Assembly: GCA_020050685.1 (NCBI GenBank)
Contig: JAGVKG010000003.1
Location: forward strand, 1 to 52,155
Length of the DNA: 52,155 nt
Source of the DNA: Candidatus Obscuribacterales bacterium
GTDB lineage: Bacteria > Cyanobacteriota > Vampirovibrionia > Obscuribacterales > Obscuribacteraceae
Direction: 5' to 3'
Shown here: one piece after another, positions 40,411-51,607 of the stretch
Layout: each line of letters begins with the position of its first letter
Numbering within the stretch: position 1 is the stretch's first letter
Translations under genes and position numbers: made by a program
Notes under the pieces: model-generated
The model's database searches: none
Seen by the model: only the letters and a program-made list of their open reading frames with translations
What the model was told of the DNA's origin: nothing

Positions 40411-40487
40411 CGACGAAGGACCCCTCAGTTTCATCGAAGTTTAATGAGAGGTCCTTCGTCGGCACGACGCGCCTCCTCAGGATGACA
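40411..40487. repeat. dispersed repeat, copy 4
   Basis: CGACGAAGGACCCCTCA and ATGAGAGGTCCTTCGTCG form an arm pair, followed by CTCCTCAGGATGACA. It lies just upstream of the M16 gene. Confidence 0.8.
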
Positions 40488-41165: not shown

Positions 41166-41204
41166 GAAGGACCTCTCGGATTTCCCAATCGCGAGAGGTC
41201 CTTC
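41166..41204 (-). repeat. hairpin derived from the dispersed repeat
   Basis: GAAGGACCTCTCG (41166-41178) pairs perfectly with CGAGAGGTCCTTC (41192-41204). It is the central core of the dispersed repeat without the TGTCATCCTGAG ends, acting as an intergenic hairpin. Confidence 0.7.
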
Positions 41205-41875: not shown

Positions 41876-41968
41876 TGTCATCCTGAGCCGCAGGCGAAGG
41901 ACCCCTCATAGCTTCGTAGAAGTTGTATGAGAGGTCCTTCGTCGTGCTGTGCACTCCTCAGGATGACA
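41876..41968. repeat. dispersed repeat, full palindromic copy 5
   Basis: TGTCATCCTGAGCCG...GAAGGACCCCTCAT and ATGAGAGGTCCTTCG...CTCCTCAGGATGACA are complementary arms about 93 bases end to end. Confidence 0.9.
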
Positions 41969-44398: not shown

Positions 44399-44686
44399 CG
44401 GGGGATGGCCGCCGACCGCAGGTGCAAGTCCTGCTCTCTCCACCATTTTTTGTGAAATTGCATCATATATAAGTCTGCATGCTCCAGCGAAGCGTGTCGA
44501 CGTATTTATGTGTGCGGTGCACAAGCCACAGCGCAGCGCAGAATTCCGATGAGGAATTCGGAGCGAAGCGTCTTAACGTGCGGAGGAGTCGATGTTACGC
44601 ATCGACTTCGGAGCACTTATATATGGAGAGATCGGAAAGACACGTGAATCACGGCAGGTGAAAGCCCTGCTCCCCCGCCATTTTTT
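44399..44686 (+). ncRNA. nested structured RNA with two tRNA-like CCA ends
   Basis: Unit A: GCAGG-TGCAAGT-CCTGC (44418-44434) then TCTCTCC-A-CCA-TTTTTT. Unit B: GCAGG-TGAAAGC-CCTGC (44654-44670) then TCCCCC-G-CCA-TTTTTT. B's 5' GGAGAGA (44625-44631) pairs perfectly with A's TCTCTCC (44435-44441). A's 5' CGGGGGA (44399-44405) pairs with B's TCCCCCG (44671-44677). Between the units ACTTATATAT (44615-44624), which runs straight into GGAGAGA, pairs with ATATATAAGT (44465-44474). Topology is like a circularly permuted tRNA/tmRNA precursor, but the T-loops (TGC/TGA) are non-canonical. Confidence 0.6.
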
Positions 44687-45144
44687 CTATCGTCTGTGAT
44701 AGCTGCGCTAACTAGTCTCACTGCGCCAACACATATTTGTGCTGGCGCTCTGTGTCGTGCGCAATCTTATTCGCTTCCATTTGATTAGCACGCTTTGACT
44801 GCCTGTGTTTGGAAACGCACAGCACAAGTGAGTTTTTGTCCTTTAAGTGCTGCTAGCGCAAACTTGCGCGGGCTTTAGCCGCACGCGTTGCCCGCAATTC
44901 TATTAAAAACGTTGAACTAGAAATAGAGCTTCTAAATACACTAGTTTTAAGGCATAGTCACTTTTTTAGATCTATACGTAAATCTCTCAAATCAAATAAC
45001 TAGCCAACACTTTCCCATTTTTACTTACCAGAAATCTCTGGCTAGTGTTCAACGCTCCTAAGCAAGCGGATGGTTGCACAACATTCGTGCGTCGCCGATT
45101 GCTTTCAACCATTTACCCCACCCAATCCTAAGGAGCGCGCGGCG
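44687..45144. other. gene-free stretch
   Basis: No supported gene. GCGCTAAC and related GCGC motifs recur (near 44705 and 44868). The last 40 bases before the 45183 gene include a half repeat. Confidence 0.4.
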
Positions 45145-45182: not shown

Positions 45183-46388
45183 ATGTTGCTCAAAATTCTC
45201 AATGCCTTGAGATACGCGATTCAACCGCTCTCGATGGTGTCATGGTTAGCGGCAGTGTTCTGGCAAGGACAGCTGCAGCAATACTTCGGCTTGTACACTG
45301 CTTGCGTTGTGACCGCTGCCATAAGTTTGGTGACAATCCTGGCAGCGCCGAAGTTCCGATTAAGGACATTGTTCACCGCTCCTTCGCGTGTGTGGATAAT
45401 CTGGCCAATCAGAATTGCCACTGTGGCGAATGTGATTGCGTTCACCATCGCTGCATGCCAGGCGAACAATTCGTTTTTGATTGCTCTGCCTTTTATTGGG
45501 CAGCTCGCTTTCCTTCGCCTGTATTTGCTCTATCGCGATCGCTTGGGCGAATACGCAATAGATTGGAACGGTGTCAATCCGATTGGTGCCTGGTACAACC
45601 CACCTCTGGAAAAAATCGAACCGGGTGATTCGATTGTGTCCGGACACGGTGGCGCTCGTAAGGAAGGATCATCCGGTGGTCATGCTGAGAAAGTTGGCCG
45701 GAACAAACACGGACGATTGGTGACATACAGCTCATATATGAACGCTGGTATGGCTGAGCGTGATCTTGAAGCACAGCTTGCGCGCTGGAATGAATCTGGC
45801 GAAAGATATTTCGTGCTCAAGCCAGTCAATCCGGAAACGGGCGAATTCAATCCACTTTCCGAAGAAGAAATCAAACTGCAAGATGATTTCTTCCAGGCAA
45901 TGTGGTGGGTGAATAAGACCGAGCAGGCGAGAATTAATCGCCGGCGACGCGCTCTAATCGGCATGTTGCCGATTTCGCTCAGTAAGAAAAAGTGGCTCGT
46001 GAAGAAAAGACACTGGACCGGATACAACTGGCGAGCGCTGGTTCGTCAGGACTTCACGAACTTCAAGATGCCGAAACCGGGTGAACTTCCGCGACCGACA
46101 AGAAAGTCTTGGACTTGCGTGTCCGCTGTTGTGGAACTGAGCTACGCAGTTGGTCGAGTGGCACGCTCGTATGGTCGAGATATATTCGGGCTGAAGTTCG
46201 GTGTCGTGAAGATGGCAATTCGCCCGCTTGAATTGCTCTACGATCCCGGCTACGCATATCTCACGCTTGCAGATAAGGCAGCCTATGAGGCCGAACACGG
46301 TATCAAACTGTTCGAGCCGCCGACCAGAAAAGTCGAGTACACGATGATGGACAAGTTCCGGCTCTGGTGCTGGGGCGTCTACGTGTAA
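45183..46388 (+). CDS. membrane protein A1, permuted NlpC/P60 (papain-like) candidate
   Basis: AGGAGG lies nine bases upstream of ATG. About four hydrophobic segments (15-120) are followed by a large domain. KIEPGDSIVSGH and GGHAEKVG give a conserved His167 with Glu169, RYFVLKPV follows, WTGYNW is an aromatic motif, and SWTCVSAVVELSYAVG gives Cys312. The HxE ... C order with ~145 residues between matches the circularly permuted NlpC/P60 (YiiX/LRAT) fold, in which His comes first and Cys last. It could act on cell-envelope amide or ester bonds. Its closest relative is the 49136 gene. Confidence 0.68.
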   Translation: MLLKILNALRYAIQPLSMVSWLAAVFWQGQLQQYFGLYTACVVTAAISLVTILAAPKFRLRTLFTAPSRVWIIWPIRIATVANVIAFTIAACQANNSFLIALPFIGQLAFLRLYLLYRDRLGEYAIDWNGVNPIGAWYNPPLEKIEPGDSIVSGHGGARKEGSSGGHAEKVGRNKHGRLVTYSSYMNAGMAERDLEAQLARWNESGERYFVLKPVNPETGEFNPLSEEEIKLQDDFFQAMWWVNKTEQARINRRRRALIGMLPISLSKKKWLVKKRHWTGYNWRALVRQDFTNFKMPKPGELPRPTRKSWTCVSAVVELSYAVGRVARSYGRDIFGLKFGVVKMAIRPLELLYDPGYAYLTLADKAAYEAEHGIKLFEPPTRKVEYTMMDKFRLWCWGVYV

Positions 46389-46408
46389 CGATTCACAAAT
46401 AACACAAC

Positions 46409-46510
46409 TGTCATCCTGAGCCGAGTTATCGGCGAAGGACCTCTCTTGTTTTTACGAAATCTACGTAAGACATGGGAGGTCCTTCGGCATCGGCGTGCCT
46501 CAGGAAGACA
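46409..46510. repeat. dispersed repeat, full palindromic copy 7
   Basis: TGTCATCCTGAGCCG...GAAGGACCTCTC followed by GGGAGGTCCTTCGG...CCTCAGGAAGACATG. It separates A1 from B1 and is slightly degenerate at its right end. Confidence 0.85.
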
Positions 46511-46563
46511 TGTTGCCCATTTTAGTAATCCCCCATTTGAGACCCCCCAAGGAGGTGGACGTT

Positions 46564-47766
46564 ATGATCCACAAAGAAAATGTGTTTCGATTTCTGATGA
46601 TGACCACGCTTTGCGTGTGGCTCGCGCTCACCGTCCTTGGTGTGAGTGGGCAACTTAACTCACTTGTGGTTTTCGAGATTGGCGTTGGCTGGTTCGTATT
46701 CGTTAGCGCAATCTTTGGTTATGTTAGCGAGACGTTCATGAACCCGTTCTCTCGCCGGCTGTACTCAATCGCAACAGCGCTCGGTATTCTCACCAGCGCT
46801 TTTGCATCGTTCTACTTTGCCGACGTGCTGCTCAAGCTTATCGCGGTACTCATGGTTTTCCCATGGATGTTCGTCTTAGGCTTGTACGTTAAAGAGCACG
46901 AGAAGTACGAACAGACCGGCCGCGGACTGATGATCAAAGGAGCGTATGTTGATCCGCCAGTCAGCGAATGGAAATCTGGCATGGTGCTAGCTTCTGAAGG
47001 AACGGGTTCGAATGGTGATTTGTCGCTCTGTCATGGAGAACTGATCATCCAGAATCCGAGCACCGGAGCATTGGAGACCATCGCCGACTACATGGAGAAG
47101 GGTCCGCACTTCTACACCGCCGATGTCGTCTATGACCGGTTCGTCAACAAGAACAACGAAAGGTTCTACTTGCTCGAACCAGTTGTTCCGTGGACCGAAG
47201 AACAACATCGTCTGGCTTGGGACGAAGCGAAAGCAATGTGGCGAGATAATCGCAAACTGCGCTGCGTGAAAAACAAGCCATTGAAGGCGATGATTGAAAC
47301 CAAGTTTGCTCACCTAACCGCCGACGAACAGCACGAGATGCGGAAGAAGAAGTATTACACTGGCTACTATTGGAAAGGCCTATGGTGTGGTGCAGAATCT
47401 AAAGAGCCCGAATGGACATGCATAAGCTTTGTCCTCGTGCTTCTGCATCGCATTGGCGTCAAGACTTGTCGCCATGCAATTGGTTTGTTCGGTCTCGGCA
47501 CGGGCATTCTCGATCCGATCATTCCGGTCAATTTCGCTACGGATAGAAAACACTTCCGTATCGTCATGCGCCCGGACTATCAACCAGAACCGCTCAGGCG
47601 GTATTCTTTGCTGGAAACAATCCGGCTTGGTGTGACTGGCTGGCCGCTAATGGTGGCAGACATAACTAAGTTCGTCAAAGCTGTTTGCGAACAGTTTTCG
47701 GGAGCTCCCCCAATCCCTCCAGTAATTGAGGACGATGAAGCGGGGCTCGACGAGCACGTTGCTTAG
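46564..47766 (+). CDS. membrane protein B1, permuted NlpC/P60 (papain-like) candidate
   Basis: AAGGAGG precedes ATG 46564 (MIHKENVFRF). Three or four N-terminal membrane segments (8-110) precede the domain. WKSGMVLAS, LCHGELIIQ (His157, Glu159), RFYLLEPVVPWTEEQ, YTGYYW and EWTCISFVLVLLHRIG (Cys286) are the same series of motifs as in A1. Closest relative is the adjacent B2. GLFGLGTGILDPIIP follows Cys, another motif shared by all four. The enzyme role is inferred from fold motifs. Confidence 0.68.
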   Translation: MIHKENVFRFLMMTTLCVWLALTVLGVSGQLNSLVVFEIGVGWFVFVSAIFGYVSETFMNPFSRRLYSIATALGILTSAFASFYFADVLLKLIAVLMVFPWMFVLGLYVKEHEKYEQTGRGLMIKGAYVDPPVSEWKSGMVLASEGTGSNGDLSLCHGELIIQNPSTGALETIADYMEKGPHFYTADVVYDRFVNKNNERFYLLEPVVPWTEEQHRLAWDEAKAMWRDNRKLRCVKNKPLKAMIETKFAHLTADEQHEMRKKKYYTGYYWKGLWCGAESKEPEWTCISFVLVLLHRIGVKTCRHAIGLFGLGTGILDPIIPVNFATDRKHFRIVMRPDYQPEPLRRYSLLETIRLGVTGWPLMVADITKFVKAVCEQFSGAPPIPPVIEDDEAGLDEHVA

Positions 47767-47774
47767 GACACAAC

Positions 47775-47805
47775 AGGGCACCACCTTGGTCGATGGTGGT
47801 GCCCT
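47775..47805 (+). terminator. intergenic hairpin between B1 and B2
   Basis: AGGGCACCACC (47775-47785) pairs perfectly with GGTGGTGCCCT (47795-47805). Confidence 0.65.
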
Positions 47806-47837
47806 TGATTCTCGTTTTAGATAGGAGAGCCACGAAT

Positions 47838-49028
47838 ATGATTATTCAAAAAGCATATCGATTTTTGATGATGATCTGTTTGCTGGCATTGTCAGCATGC
47901 AGTTTGTCATGCTTCTTCGAGCACGGTCACGCTGATGTTGCACTGATGTGCTTCCAAGTTGGCGTGTTTTGGTGGGTGTTCGTCAACATCATCTTCAGAT
48001 ATGTTGCCGAAACTTTCATCAATTCCTTCTCGCGCTTTCTTTATGTGATGTCTGTCGTGTGCGGCATGATGGTAAGCGCTATTGCTTGCGTCATGTTCCT
48101 TCCAAATGTATTGCTATCGGCACTGTCATTCTTGATGGTGGTACCGTGGCTCTTCATGTTTGGCAGGTACATCGAACAGTACGAGCAATACGAAGAAGCA
48201 GACGGTCAAGGGCTGGTGCGCAAAGGCGCTTACGAAAGCCCACCGCTTTCCGAATGGACAGCAGGTAGCATCCTGTTGTCCGCTGGGCTTGGTCCAAATC
48301 AGTATCGTCTTCCCGGTCGCCATGCGGAACTTAACTTGGTCAATCGCATGACTGGAGAGCTCTGCACGTTCAGTAACTTCATCGAGCATGGCTGTAAATT
48401 CACATCTTCCGAGGAAGCGTATCAACGGTTTGTCGACCAGAAGGAAAAGTTCTGGCTCGTGGATACGGTTGAACCGTGGACACCGGAGAAACTGGAGAAG
48501 GCCTGGGAAATCGCTAAAGTAATGGAGGAGGAAAATCGTCGGCACCAGATAGAATCCGGAAATGCCTTCATCCTCGGAATTCACGAAGCGTTCTGTTGGC
48601 TCGGTGAGCACGGTTGGACACCACAACGATGGCTGATCGCAAGATTGCGCGCGATGTGGACTGGCTACGACTGGCGAGGTGTTTTGTTCGGTGCGGATTC
48701 CAAACATCCAGAGTGGACCTGTATCTCAAGCGTCGTCGTATTACTTAGGCGCGTTGGGTTCAAAACATTTCACTACGGAATCGGCTTGTTCGGTTTTGGT
48801 GGTGGCTTTGCTGATCCCACGATTCCTCTGAGCTTGATGGCGGATCGCCGCAATTTCAAAGTTAGGTTGCGGCCTGGCTATGTGCCGGAACCAGTCAAAA
48901 AGTATTCGTTGCAGCAAACACTGCTGCACGGACTAACTGGCTGGCCGATTGTATGGTCTGGTGCGCGCAAGTCTCTTGCGGATTTCCGGATTCGCATGCA
49001 GATGCTATTAAGCGGACGCTTGATATAG
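47838..49028 (+). CDS. membrane protein B2, permuted NlpC/P60 (papain-like) candidate
   Basis: AGGAG precedes ATG 47838. The N-terminal membrane region is followed by WTAGSILLS, GRHAELNLV (His162, Glu164), KFWLVDTVEPWTPEK, WTGYDW and EWTCISSVVVLLRRVG (Cys294). After Cys comes GLFGFGGGFADPTIP. B2 is closely similar to B1 in the membrane segments and around His and Cys, so the two are a tandem duplication. The conserved His, Glu and Cys support catalytic activity. Confidence 0.68.
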   Translation: MIIQKAYRFLMMICLLALSACSLSCFFEHGHADVALMCFQVGVFWWVFVNIIFRYVAETFINSFSRFLYVMSVVCGMMVSAIACVMFLPNVLLSALSFLMVVPWLFMFGRYIEQYEQYEEADGQGLVRKGAYESPPLSEWTAGSILLSAGLGPNQYRLPGRHAELNLVNRMTGELCTFSNFIEHGCKFTSSEEAYQRFVDQKEKFWLVDTVEPWTPEKLEKAWEIAKVMEEENRRHQIESGNAFILGIHEAFCWLGEHGWTPQRWLIARLRAMWTGYDWRGVLFGADSKHPEWTCISSVVVLLRRVGFKTFHYGIGLFGFGGGFADPTIPLSLMADRRNFKVRLRPGYVPEPVKKYSLQQTLLHGLTGWPIVWSGARKSLADFRIRMQMLLSGRLI

Positions 49029-49135
49029 AAGCGCTTGTTCCATCTTGCCTATCAGGACGGACATAGCGCCTCTATATCAGCGCCGCTGTTTTTATAAAGC
49101 TATCACAACTTCACCAAGGGAGGTGAGGAGGGTTC

Positions 49136-50335
49136 ATGTTGACGTTATTTTTGCAACGAAGCGTATTGTTCATTCGAGGTGTGGCATTATTTGCATGGTT
49201 GTGCTTGACTGGTGCCTTGGCACAAGGTGCGCTGCTGCAAGTAATCGGCGTCTATGCGGCATGCATGACTCTGTCCATTGACGGACTGATCATTACCTTG
49301 CCGCGACTGAAGCACCTCTTGCGCACGATCTACAATTCCGGCTCACGCTGGTGGATCGTTTGGCCTTTCCGTGTTGCCACAATTGCTAATGTGGTGGCAT
49401 ACATTGCTGCTGTGCACGATCATCGCTGGCTGCTCGCTCTGGTTCCGCTGGCGTGCCAGTGGTACTGGATGATGGTCATCCTAGATTATCGCTTAGAGCT
49501 CAAGCGGTGTGTGATCGATTGGAATGGAGTTAATCCTCCCAATGCCTGGTCAAACCCGATATTGGACGACGTGAAACCTGGAGATATCTTTGTCTCAGGT
49601 CATCCATTTGCTCGTGGAGCTGGAGTTGATCCGGATGGTCATATCGAAATTGCGTTCCGCGGTCACGATGGGCGCATGCGATTGGCCAGTTCGAATTTGG
49701 AGTACGGTATGACCACCCATGACCTTGAGTGGAAAGTTACCGATTGGAAGAAAGCGCAAGAGCGTTACTTCGTCCTTGGTGTGAAGCAAGAGTTGACAGA
49801 AGAGGAGAGCAATTACCTCACAGCGTACATTTACAAAATGTGTGCTGCCAATCGGATTCGTCGACACATCTTCAACGCCAACATCCGCAAGTTCATCGAC
49901 ATGTTGCCGATTCCACGCGCGTGGAATTTCAAACTCGCGAAGTTCGCGCGTTGGAGCGGCTACAACTTTGTCGGGCTTGTTCACGAGCCGGCTCACAAGC
50001 CGCGTCGAGTGAATTTGGACATTGAACAAATCCAAATTCAACAAAGCGATTGGACTTGTGTTTCCGCCATTGTCGAAATGATGGAAGCGCTCGGACGCAG
50101 CAAGCGACACTATGGTGTGGATTTGTTCGGTTTGCCTTTTGGAATTATTCGCCCGCCGATTTTTCCTTGGCAGTTGCTGGATGATCCTGCATATCGCTTG
50201 TGGACAAACGAAGACAAGAAAAAGGCTGAAGCAAGACTCGGAATCACCATTGTTGATCCGGTTCAACGCGAAGCAAAGAAAAATCCCAGACTAATCGCCC
50301 GAGTGCGTGATTGGTTCTGGGGAGTGTATGTCTAA
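49136..50335 (+). CDS. membrane protein A2, permuted NlpC/P60 (papain-like) candidate
   Basis: GGAGG is close before ATG 49136. About four membrane segments (8-120) precede VKPGDIFVSGH, DGHIEIAFR (His169, Glu171), RYFVLGV, WSGYNF and SDWTCVSAIVEMMEALG (Cys308), then LFGLPFGIIRPPIFP. It ends DWFWGVYV, like A1 (LWCWGVYV), confirming they are paralogues that flank B1/B2 in an A-B-B-A order. The family is unnamed, and the papain-like reading is an inference from motif order and spacing. Confidence 0.68.
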   Translation: MLTLFLQRSVLFIRGVALFAWLCLTGALAQGALLQVIGVYAACMTLSIDGLIITLPRLKHLLRTIYNSGSRWWIVWPFRVATIANVVAYIAAVHDHRWLLALVPLACQWYWMMVILDYRLELKRCVIDWNGVNPPNAWSNPILDDVKPGDIFVSGHPFARGAGVDPDGHIEIAFRGHDGRMRLASSNLEYGMTTHDLEWKVTDWKKAQERYFVLGVKQELTEEESNYLTAYIYKMCAANRIRRHIFNANIRKFIDMLPIPRAWNFKLAKFARWSGYNFVGLVHEPAHKPRRVNLDIEQIQIQQSDWTCVSAIVEMMEALGRSKRHYGVDLFGLPFGIIRPPIFPWQLLDDPAYRLWTNEDKKKAEARLGITIVDPVQREAKKNPRLIARVRDWFWGVYV

Positions 50336-50373
50336 TGGTGGCAATTGCCCTTGCCGTCGAAACAATGATGGGT

Positions 50374-50426
50374 ATTGAGGTGCGGGTTCCCCCAAGAGGT
50401 TTCTAAATTAGAATCCGCACCTCAAT
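50374..50426 (+). terminator. hairpin with a sister copy at 51565
   Basis: ATTGAGGTGCGG (50374-50385) pairs with CCGCACCTCAAT (50415-50426), followed by AACGTCAC. Confidence 0.7.
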
Positions 50427-50576
50427 AACGTCACTGGATAATTAGATAGAAGATGCGGAATCAGGGACCGCCACAGACGGCTCTGAAACACGCCTCTTTT
50501 CCGACGTGATTAGGTTGAACCAAAGAGCATGTGCCTTTTTGAGATCATGGGCGCAACTGGAATGAGGAATGAAGTT

Positions 50577-51527
50577 ATGACGACAACGATTGAAGGAAAA
50601 GTTGTGTGGGGAAAGATCAGGGATATTTCGGGGAATATCGAAGGTACTGAAATAGAAGGCACGTTAATATTTCTGCGTGCTGATCCATCCGATCGACCGA
50701 TGCAGGATTGTGTATACAACCTAGTTGCGTCAGGTAAGTCCTGGTCGGAACAAGATGAGCTAAGACAGTTTGCCGGCCATCAATGCAAAGTAACTGGTCA
50801 GTTGACAGAGGTAGGCTATCATATTGTATTTGTTGTGACTACGATCGAAGCAACTGACGACACGTGCGAAGTGAGAAAAGAATTCAAGGAACGGCGACCA
50901 TTCGGTGCTTTGGCTGCGAGTGCATTGGAATCGGTGAAAAGCCTGGAGAGCGCACGGGAAACGACAGTACTTTATCTTAAAAGTCTGGCAACGAATGATT
51001 TCCTCATGGCCAAGCAAGCGCGTGTTGAAGTGCACGTTCCAATCTTCGACGGATGTTGCGATGAAGCGTGTCGCAAGGACTGCGAGTTGTATTTAGAGGC
51101 AGAGCAACTGTGGCTCAAGCTGCTGAGCAAGCGTCATGAATATTCCGATGCGAAGCGGATACAGGAACTGCACCACAGCCAACATCAAAGCGCGGTGTCG
51201 ATGCTTGTGAACAAGCTTCCAGGTACCGGAGAAAACCTGGGGATGTTTCAATATCGTCCTGTCTCGGTTACGTGTAAGTCCAGCGCGAGATTGGCAGACG
51301 GCAGTTACCTGACGATATCAGTGACTGCTGAAGGTGTATTTGTCTACACAAACAAAGCGAAACGGAACCTCGACGAGATGGCGAGCCAGCACTTCCAAAA
51401 GAGCTACCAACATCTGGAAAATCCAAAAGTTGGAACGACCAACATCAAAAGCGATGTGGAGGTTGTTTACAAACACGGCAGTCACATAGCGATGAGCTTG
51501 CATACGACTATAACGAAAGATCGCTAA
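50577..51527 (+). CDS. hypothetical protein, 316 aa
   Basis: TGAGGA about ten bases upstream supports ATG 50577. Other in-frame ATGs (50529, 50562) exist. An N-terminal beta domain (VVWGKIRDISGNIEGTEIEGT...HQCKVTGQLTEVGYHIVFVVTTI) could be an OB-like barrel. The middle is helical (ESVKSLESARETTVLYLKSL). A Cys cluster (DGCCDEACRKDC, ~160-172) is striking and might bind metal. The C-terminus is basic. No named family. It is flanked by two sister hairpins. Confidence 0.6.
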   Translation: MTTTIEGKVVWGKIRDISGNIEGTEIEGTLIFLRADPSDRPMQDCVYNLVASGKSWSEQDELRQFAGHQCKVTGQLTEVGYHIVFVVTTIEATDDTCEVRKEFKERRPFGALAASALESVKSLESARETTVLYLKSLATNDFLMAKQARVEVHVPIFDGCCDEACRKDCELYLEAEQLWLKLLSKRHEYSDAKRIQELHHSQHQSAVSMLVNKLPGTGENLGMFQYRPVSVTCKSSARLADGSYLTISVTAEGVFVYTNKAKRNLDEMASQHFQKSYQHLENPKVGTTNIKSDVEVVYKHGSHIAMSLHTTITKDR

Positions 51528-51564: not shown

Positions 51565-51603
51565 TATTGAGGTGCGGATTCCCAAAGGAGTTCGCACCTC
51601 AAT
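51565..51603. terminator. bidirectional terminator, sister copy of 50374
   Basis: ATTGAGGTGCG pairs with CGCACCTCAAT, followed by AACGTCAC, the same ends as the hairpin at 50374. It serves the 50577 gene and, on minus, the YgiT gene. Confidence 0.75.
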
Positions 51604-51607
51604 AACG

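Follow-up and report, generated by a model that had tools for sequence, protein, structure and literature searches.

What do four adjacent genes for membrane proteins encode in the genome of a member of the Obscuribacterales, an uncultured, non-photosynthetic cyanobacterial relative, and do they form a system of their own? The genes, designated A1, B1, B2 and A2, lie in a row within a window of 52 kb, which is the whole stretch of DNA that was analyzed. An initial annotation had read them as permuted papain-like (NlpC/P60) proteins resembling YiiX and LRAT, arranged as an A-B-B-A operon, and as a candidate for an undescribed system. Our results support a family of permuted NlpC/P60 proteins on the YiiX side, and the cluster is better described as a lineage-restricted subfamily that has grown to four tandem copies in this genome than as an undescribed system. 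Four consecutive paralogous open reading frames were found on the same strand:

45183–46388, + strand: gene A1, 401 amino acids; four N-terminal helices (about residues 2–121) and a predicted permuted NlpC/P60 domain (about residues 124–365) with H167, E169, Y281 and C312
46564–47766, + strand: gene B1, likely 400 amino acids from ATG 46564; H157 and C286 in the 400-residue numbering
46495–47766, + strand: longest open reading frame of B1, from GTG 46495
47838–49028, + strand: gene B2, likely 396 amino acids from ATG 47838; H162 and C295 in the 396-residue numbering
47793–49028, + strand: longest open reading frame of B2, from ATG 47793, inside a hairpin
49136–50335, + strand: gene A2, 399 amino acids; H169, E171, Y276 and C308

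Starts at ATG 46564 (B1) and ATG 47838 (B2) appear most likely. Shine-Dalgarno sequences (AAGGAGGT and TAGGAG, respectively) precede them, and the longer alternative starts are located in or beside intergenic hairpins. Identity was 39% between A1 and A2 and 40% between B1 and B2, compared with 18–22% between A and B proteins. In a maximum-likelihood tree of 47 non-redundant family members, A1 was joined to A2 and B1 to B2 at 100/100 each, so the proposed A-B-B-A order is correct. His-to-Cys distances were 145 (A1), 129 (B1), 133 (B2) and 139 (A2) residues, which corrects one of the four values given earlier (132 for B2). The WTC[VI]S motif was present in all four proteins. The other motifs described as shared were less uniform: A1 has IFG instead of LFG, B2 has KFW at the RYF/RFY site, and GY(N/D)W reads GYYW in B1 and GYNF in A2. 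A six-frame scan of the 52 kb for HxE followed at 100–160 residues by TC[VI][SGA] recovered the four cluster reading frames and no others. Scans of the four proteins against Pfam and NCBIfam gave no meaningful match, and matches to an "enoyl-CoA hydratase-like" PHROG were weak (E 0.001).

The fold was addressed by structure prediction. AlphaFold models of A1 and B2 were each built on 37 homologues from one homologue set, so the two are not fully independent, and both reached a predicted template modeling score (pTM) of 0.83. Each model begins with four long N-terminal helices, the fourth being broken in two in B2, and hydropathy indicated three to four membrane segments in each of the four proteins, in agreement with the N-terminal membrane segments first proposed. 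The domain that follows runs through the PGD/SG strand, the His strand, two strands, a helix, a strand and a long helix pair; then come the GY(D/N) Tyr and a helix whose first residue is the Cys (C312 in A1, C297 in the numbering of the B2 model). Structural matches were ranked with VIA-align, which was run on candidates from Foldseek, so that the lack of other folds among them proves nothing. The best solved match for A1 was BcPPNE (3KW0), with Z 12.2 over 171 residues. For B2, 3KW0 again ranked first (Z 13.6 over 165 residues), followed by YiiX (2IF6; Z 13.5 over 151). These matches span the catalytic domain and stand above the lower rows (Z up to ~11), which consist of helical bundles aligned for the most part with the membrane helices. 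A sequence search of the PDB with the family profile returned weak, unrelated matches only.

Profile comparison pointed to the same relatives. E. coli YiiX and 17 C92 proteins of the phylum were combined into a profile, and its comparison with the family by hhalign gave Prob 95.7, E 8.9e-9 and a score of 65, while one reversed and 12 column-shuffled C92 alignments used as controls scored at most 18.1. The match is firm because the wider family was included; the four window proteins alone gave a weaker score of 43.6. The alignment was collinear with YiiX: PGD corresponds to GD, H166, Y272 and C289 of the canonical copy fall on H49, Y115 and C128, and A1 Y281 aligned to Y115. Together with the predicted fold and the kept His and Cys, this match to C92 (YaeF/YiiX) upheld the permuted papain-like assignment. 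The LRAT half of the proposed likeness did not extend beyond the general fold. A relation by sequence to LRAT (PF04970) was rejected, as 20 cyanobacterial LRAT proteins scored 13.4, in line with shuffled controls; their NCEHF Cys motif is absent from the family, which has WTC[VI][GS]. Lnb_N/DUF4105 (PF13387) had no match in this genome, in the family members or in 291 other genomes of the phylum.

The codons of the candidate active-site residues are as follows:

45681–45683 (A1, His167), 47032–47034 (B1), 48321–48323 (B2) and 49640–49642 (A2), + strand: His
46023–46025 (A1, Tyr281), 47365–47367 (B1), 48666–48668 (B2) and 49961–49963 (A2), + strand: Tyr
46116–46118 (A1, Cys312), 47419–47421 (B1), 48720–48722 (B2) and 50057–50059 (A2), + strand: Cys

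The His was conserved in all 47 family members; the Tyr, the Cys and the HxE Glu were each kept in 45. All four window proteins keep the full set. The His–Cys pair on which the enzyme assignment had been based is therefore retained among homologues. One Cys loss belongs to a split, frameshifted gene (L070). The other, at L034/L122 (G026:C186), reads WLVIST, and this member looks inactive from its sequence. Phe replaces the Tyr in a copy on contig 10 of the host's own genome. Among characterized relatives, Tyr115 of YiiX and His49, Glu64, Cys154 and Tyr127 of BcPPNE are active-site residues (PMC3142127).

Within the order and the phylum sample, the family was found in one lineage only. Outside the window, the host genome encodes two more members (contigs 38 and 10). 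At least one member was present in 33 of 53 genomes of the order, all of them in the host's own family; none was found in the three genomes of the order's other family or in the 291 genomes of the rest of the phylum. A scan of 84,980 species genomes, using patterns derived from close relatives that distant members in other phyla may escape, returned 34 loci, most of them labeled Obscuribacterales, Obscuribacter, Melainabacteria or Cyanobacteria and a few with other bin labels. At least two contigs with other labels (SBAT01000359.1 and JAJPJO010000254.1) correspond to genomes placed in the host's family. Contigs labeled Chloroflexi (L042), Proteobacteria (L073) and Mariniblastus (L049) were among the loci; the first two look like mislabeled bins from genomes placed in the host's family, and the third may reflect contamination or transfer. 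Collections of viral contigs, plasmids and phages contained no family member. Relatives carry a single gene or a tight pair, and four genes in a row occur in this genome only, which does not bear out A-B-B-A as a conserved system. In two genera (L071 and L072), a diverged tandem pair lies 12 bp apart or nearly overlaps, and the tree placed the pair's copies as orthologous between the genera. This suggests, from gene order and phylogeny, that the paralogues act jointly.

Which side of the membrane the catalytic domain occupies was judged from the loop content of Lys and Arg in 45 aligned members. In 45 of 45, the excess fell on the side of the N-terminus, the helix 2–3 loop and the catalytic domain (mean ~9.9 vs. 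~1.5), so by the positive-inside rule the domain is probably cytoplasmic. Signal- or lipoprotein-like N-termini were common among the C92 proteins in the phylum sample, none of which had a multi-helix membrane region.

In one large branch of the family, a patatin-like phospholipase gene lies upstream on the same strand, adjacent or within ~1.2 kb, at 10 loci:

L052 (two copies), L055, L060, L061, L063, L064, L065 (two copies), L066, L067 and L073, same strand: patatin gene upstream of the permuted enzyme

At an eleventh locus, L122, the patatin lies just downstream. The linked loci fall in at least seven genera. Since this genome holds six patatins in 4.2 Mb, chance adjacency would be ~0.1% per locus, though the loci share ancestry. 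The L122 member (G026:C186), which has lost its Cys, is nonetheless only 63 bp from the same-strand patatin gene. At L055, L060 and L061, the order is patatin, a short-chain dehydrogenase/reductase (SDR) of the 3-hydroxybutyrate dehydrogenase type, then the permuted enzyme, which may hint at mobilization of a storage polymer or of fatty acids.

We consider it reasonably probable that the cluster represents a lineage-specific expansion of membrane-anchored, cytoplasm-facing permuted NlpC/P60 (YiiX-like) thiol enzymes that act on acyl lipids. The family, its predicted fold, residue order, conservation, lineage restriction, paralogue pairing and the patatin neighborhood of one branch are computed results. 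The four N-terminal helices would serve as an inner-membrane anchor that leaves the catalytic domain at the cytoplasmic face. There, with the His (H167 in A1) as activator and the conserved Tyr (Y281) in an assisting role, the Cys thiolate (C312) would attack an acyl bond in a substrate seated in a hydrophobic pocket, either a membrane lipid or a molecule that carries a lipid. The acyl-thioester so formed could then be resolved by transfer of the acyl group to water or some other acceptor. The bias toward lipids comes from the chemistry of permuted NlpC/P60 enzymes, the membrane embedding, ~36 extra residues in the domain and the patatin link; the cytoplasmic orientation, the substrate, the choice between hydrolysis and transfer and any cooperation of A with B are what we infer. 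Hydrophobic S1 pockets are a feature of the permuted members, among which YiiX holds a fatty acid (PMC3142127); LnsA, Lnb and Tox-Act1 have been linked to acyl-lipid chemistry (PMC7387801, PMC12994826). A bolder version, which we hold as tentative, is a new class of integral-membrane, cytoplasm-facing permuted NlpC/P60 acyl hydrolases or transferases. They would work with patatin phospholipases in a pathway specific to the Obscuribacterales that remodels inner-leaflet or storage lipids, and diverged paralogues, such as the A and B types here and the tight pairs of two genera, would combine in mixed complexes.

Several observations weigh against lipid-directed enzymes of this kind. Foldseek alone found no significant match in the PDB (best E 1.3–1.6), and the structural matches came from the second aligner. 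The best PF05708 hit in this genome reached 9.3 bits against a cut-off of 27, and the best E among 29 family members was 0.05, also short of the Pfam threshold. The acidic third catalytic residue of C92 (Glu64 in BcPPNE) is not conserved, the strand reading F/L-S-S-Y. The topology derives solely from charge counts. No patatin lies beside the window cluster or beside most members, and the TldD/PmbA metallopeptidase genes near the enzyme at eight loci, patatin-linked ones included, do not indicate lipids. Catalysis without an acidic third residue is still possible, since PPPDE1 lacks a third polar residue and has Phe there (PMC3142127, PMC10318531) and LRAT mutagenesis suggests that this residue may be non-essential (PMC3142127).

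The TldD/PmbA neighbors, found near eight members, would fit a cytoplasm-facing protease or protein deacylase of the PPPDE/Desi kind, which would cleave peptide or acyl-lysine bonds of membrane-proximal proteins. Permuted NlpC/P60 folds do include the C97/PPPDE deubiquitinases and desumoylases (PMC3142127, PMC10318531), and PPPDE1 shares the missing third polar residue. This alternative is nevertheless unlikely, as the profile similarity is to C92/YiiX, the direct same-strand neighbor in one branch is a patatin and not a peptidase, and embedding by four helices fits a lipid substrate better.

If the domain were periplasmic instead, the proteins could be peptidoglycan amidases or lipoprotein-modifying enzymes like canonical NlpC/P60 proteins, LnsA and Lnb. 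YiiX, YaeF, LnsA and Lnb are all exported, many C92 proteins sampled from the phylum have export-type starts, and the permuted group includes a lipoprotein N-acyltransferase, Lnb. The uniform Lys and Arg bias places the domain in the cytoplasm, however, and the neighborhood scans showed no cell-wall gene among recurrent neighbors, which makes a periplasmic enzyme distinctly unlikely. A role as stand-in for a missing lipoprotein N-acyltransferase was rejected, because the genome has two Lnt matches (212 and 202 bits, cut-off 133) and no such gap to explain.

A conflict or defense module, in which rapidly diversifying paralogues would act against phages or competitors, is very improbable. It would agree with a lineage-specific expansion of deep divergence, with the permuted NlpC/P60 domains among type VI secretion system effectors (PMC12994826) and with the weak resemblance of some neighboring patatins to phospholipases of the cyclic-oligonucleotide-based anti-phage signaling system (CBASS) in PADLOC and NCBIfam. 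PADLOC, however, had no match for the four window proteins, Pfam scans of the surroundings revealed no secretion module or adjacent immunity gene, the single conserved copy in many genera looks housekeeping, and the phage, plasmid and viral collections held no member. That the four copies are partly inactive paralogues serving as scaffolds or regulators is very improbable as well: the Cys-less L034/L122 member keeps its patatin neighbor and the contig 10 copy has Phe for Tyr, but all four window proteins retain His, Glu, Tyr and Cys at 18–40% mutual identity.

Beyond the genes themselves, the window contains hairpins and repeats:

46409–46510, + strand: long hairpin between A1 and B1, built from the dispersed GAAGGACCTCTC repeat (z −8.8)
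47775–47805, + strand: 11-bp perfect hairpin between B1 and B2 (z −3.3)
49021–49079, + strand: hairpin between B2 and A2, overlapping the B2 stop codon (z −5.4)
50373–50427, + strand: 17-bp hairpin after A2 (z −6.2)
51565–51604: near-identical hairpin after the next gene, with the stem TATTGAGGTGCGG as at 50373–50427 (z −8.4)
3822, 7559, 10730, 40415–40457, 41166–41204, 41896–41940, 45149 and 46434–46485: copies of GAAGGACCTCTC

Since each of the four genes is followed by a strong hairpin of its own, a single transcript cannot be assumed and the term operon was not retained. The hairpins after the window genes have no T-run. The TATTGAGGTGCGG stem hairpin stands 3' of two successive unrelated genes. 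The GAAGGACCTCTC repeat occurs in 12 copies in the window, compared with 0.25 expected by chance, often as inverted pairs between genes, and looks like a repetitive extragenic palindromic (REP)-type element. Upstream, at 44400–44750, two stretches resemble tRNA 3' ends (e.g., GCAGGTGCAAGTCCTGCTCTCTCCACCATTTTTT); ARAGORN called no tRNA there, and one stretch coincides in part with a Twister-sister match that stays under threshold (17.4 bits, cut-off 34). The next gene downstream (50529–51527) encodes an orphan protein of 332 amino acids with no Pfam match; it was rejected as a cluster partner, having no homologue in the 52 other genomes of the order.

Among known systems, the YaeF/YiiX-like proteins (PF05708, MEROPS C92; E. 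coli YiiX, 2IF6; B. cereus BcPPNE, 3KW0) are alike in predicted fold, in the order of His then Cys, and in the GD motif, the Tyr and the helix that starts at the Cys. The window family differs in its four N-terminal membrane helices and in a domain that faces the cytoplasm by charge. From the last strand to the Tyr it has ~36 additional residues; in YiiX, this region shapes the S1 pocket (PMC3142127). The family also lacks the acidic third residue and falls below the PF05708 cut-off. LRAT/HRASLS (PLAAT) acyltransferases are membrane-associated and act on phospholipid acyl chains. They share the permuted NlpC/P60 topology and the membrane association, but not the profile similarity (13.4, no better than chance) or the NCEHF motif. 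Lnb of Bacteroides and LnsA of Staphylococcus aureus are permuted NlpC/P60 proteins that also perform lipid acyl chemistry at the membrane (PMC12994826, PMC7387801); LnsA, however, has an export signal, Lnb_N matches neither this genome nor 291 others, and the host has Lnt. Human TMEM222, likened here by description and not by sequence comparison, is a transmembrane protein of the papain-like NlpC/P60 cluster (PMC10318531) and is eukaryotic. The literature searched, to which most subscription papers did not belong, gave no account of such an architecture, so the subfamily is probably new to the literature; "undescribed" holds to that extent and "system" does not. The subfamily gives a known enzyme fold a new form and does not amount to a new type of system. 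Most permuted NlpC/P60 enzymes known from bacteria to date are exported or injected; the lipid roles of LnsA, Lnb and Tox-Act1 emerged only recently. If the proposed activity is true, a conserved, membrane-built, cytoplasm-facing branch beside patatins would extend this acyl chemistry to inner-leaflet lipids in uncultured cyanobacterial relatives, for which the patatin and the permuted enzyme offer a concrete, testable gene pair.

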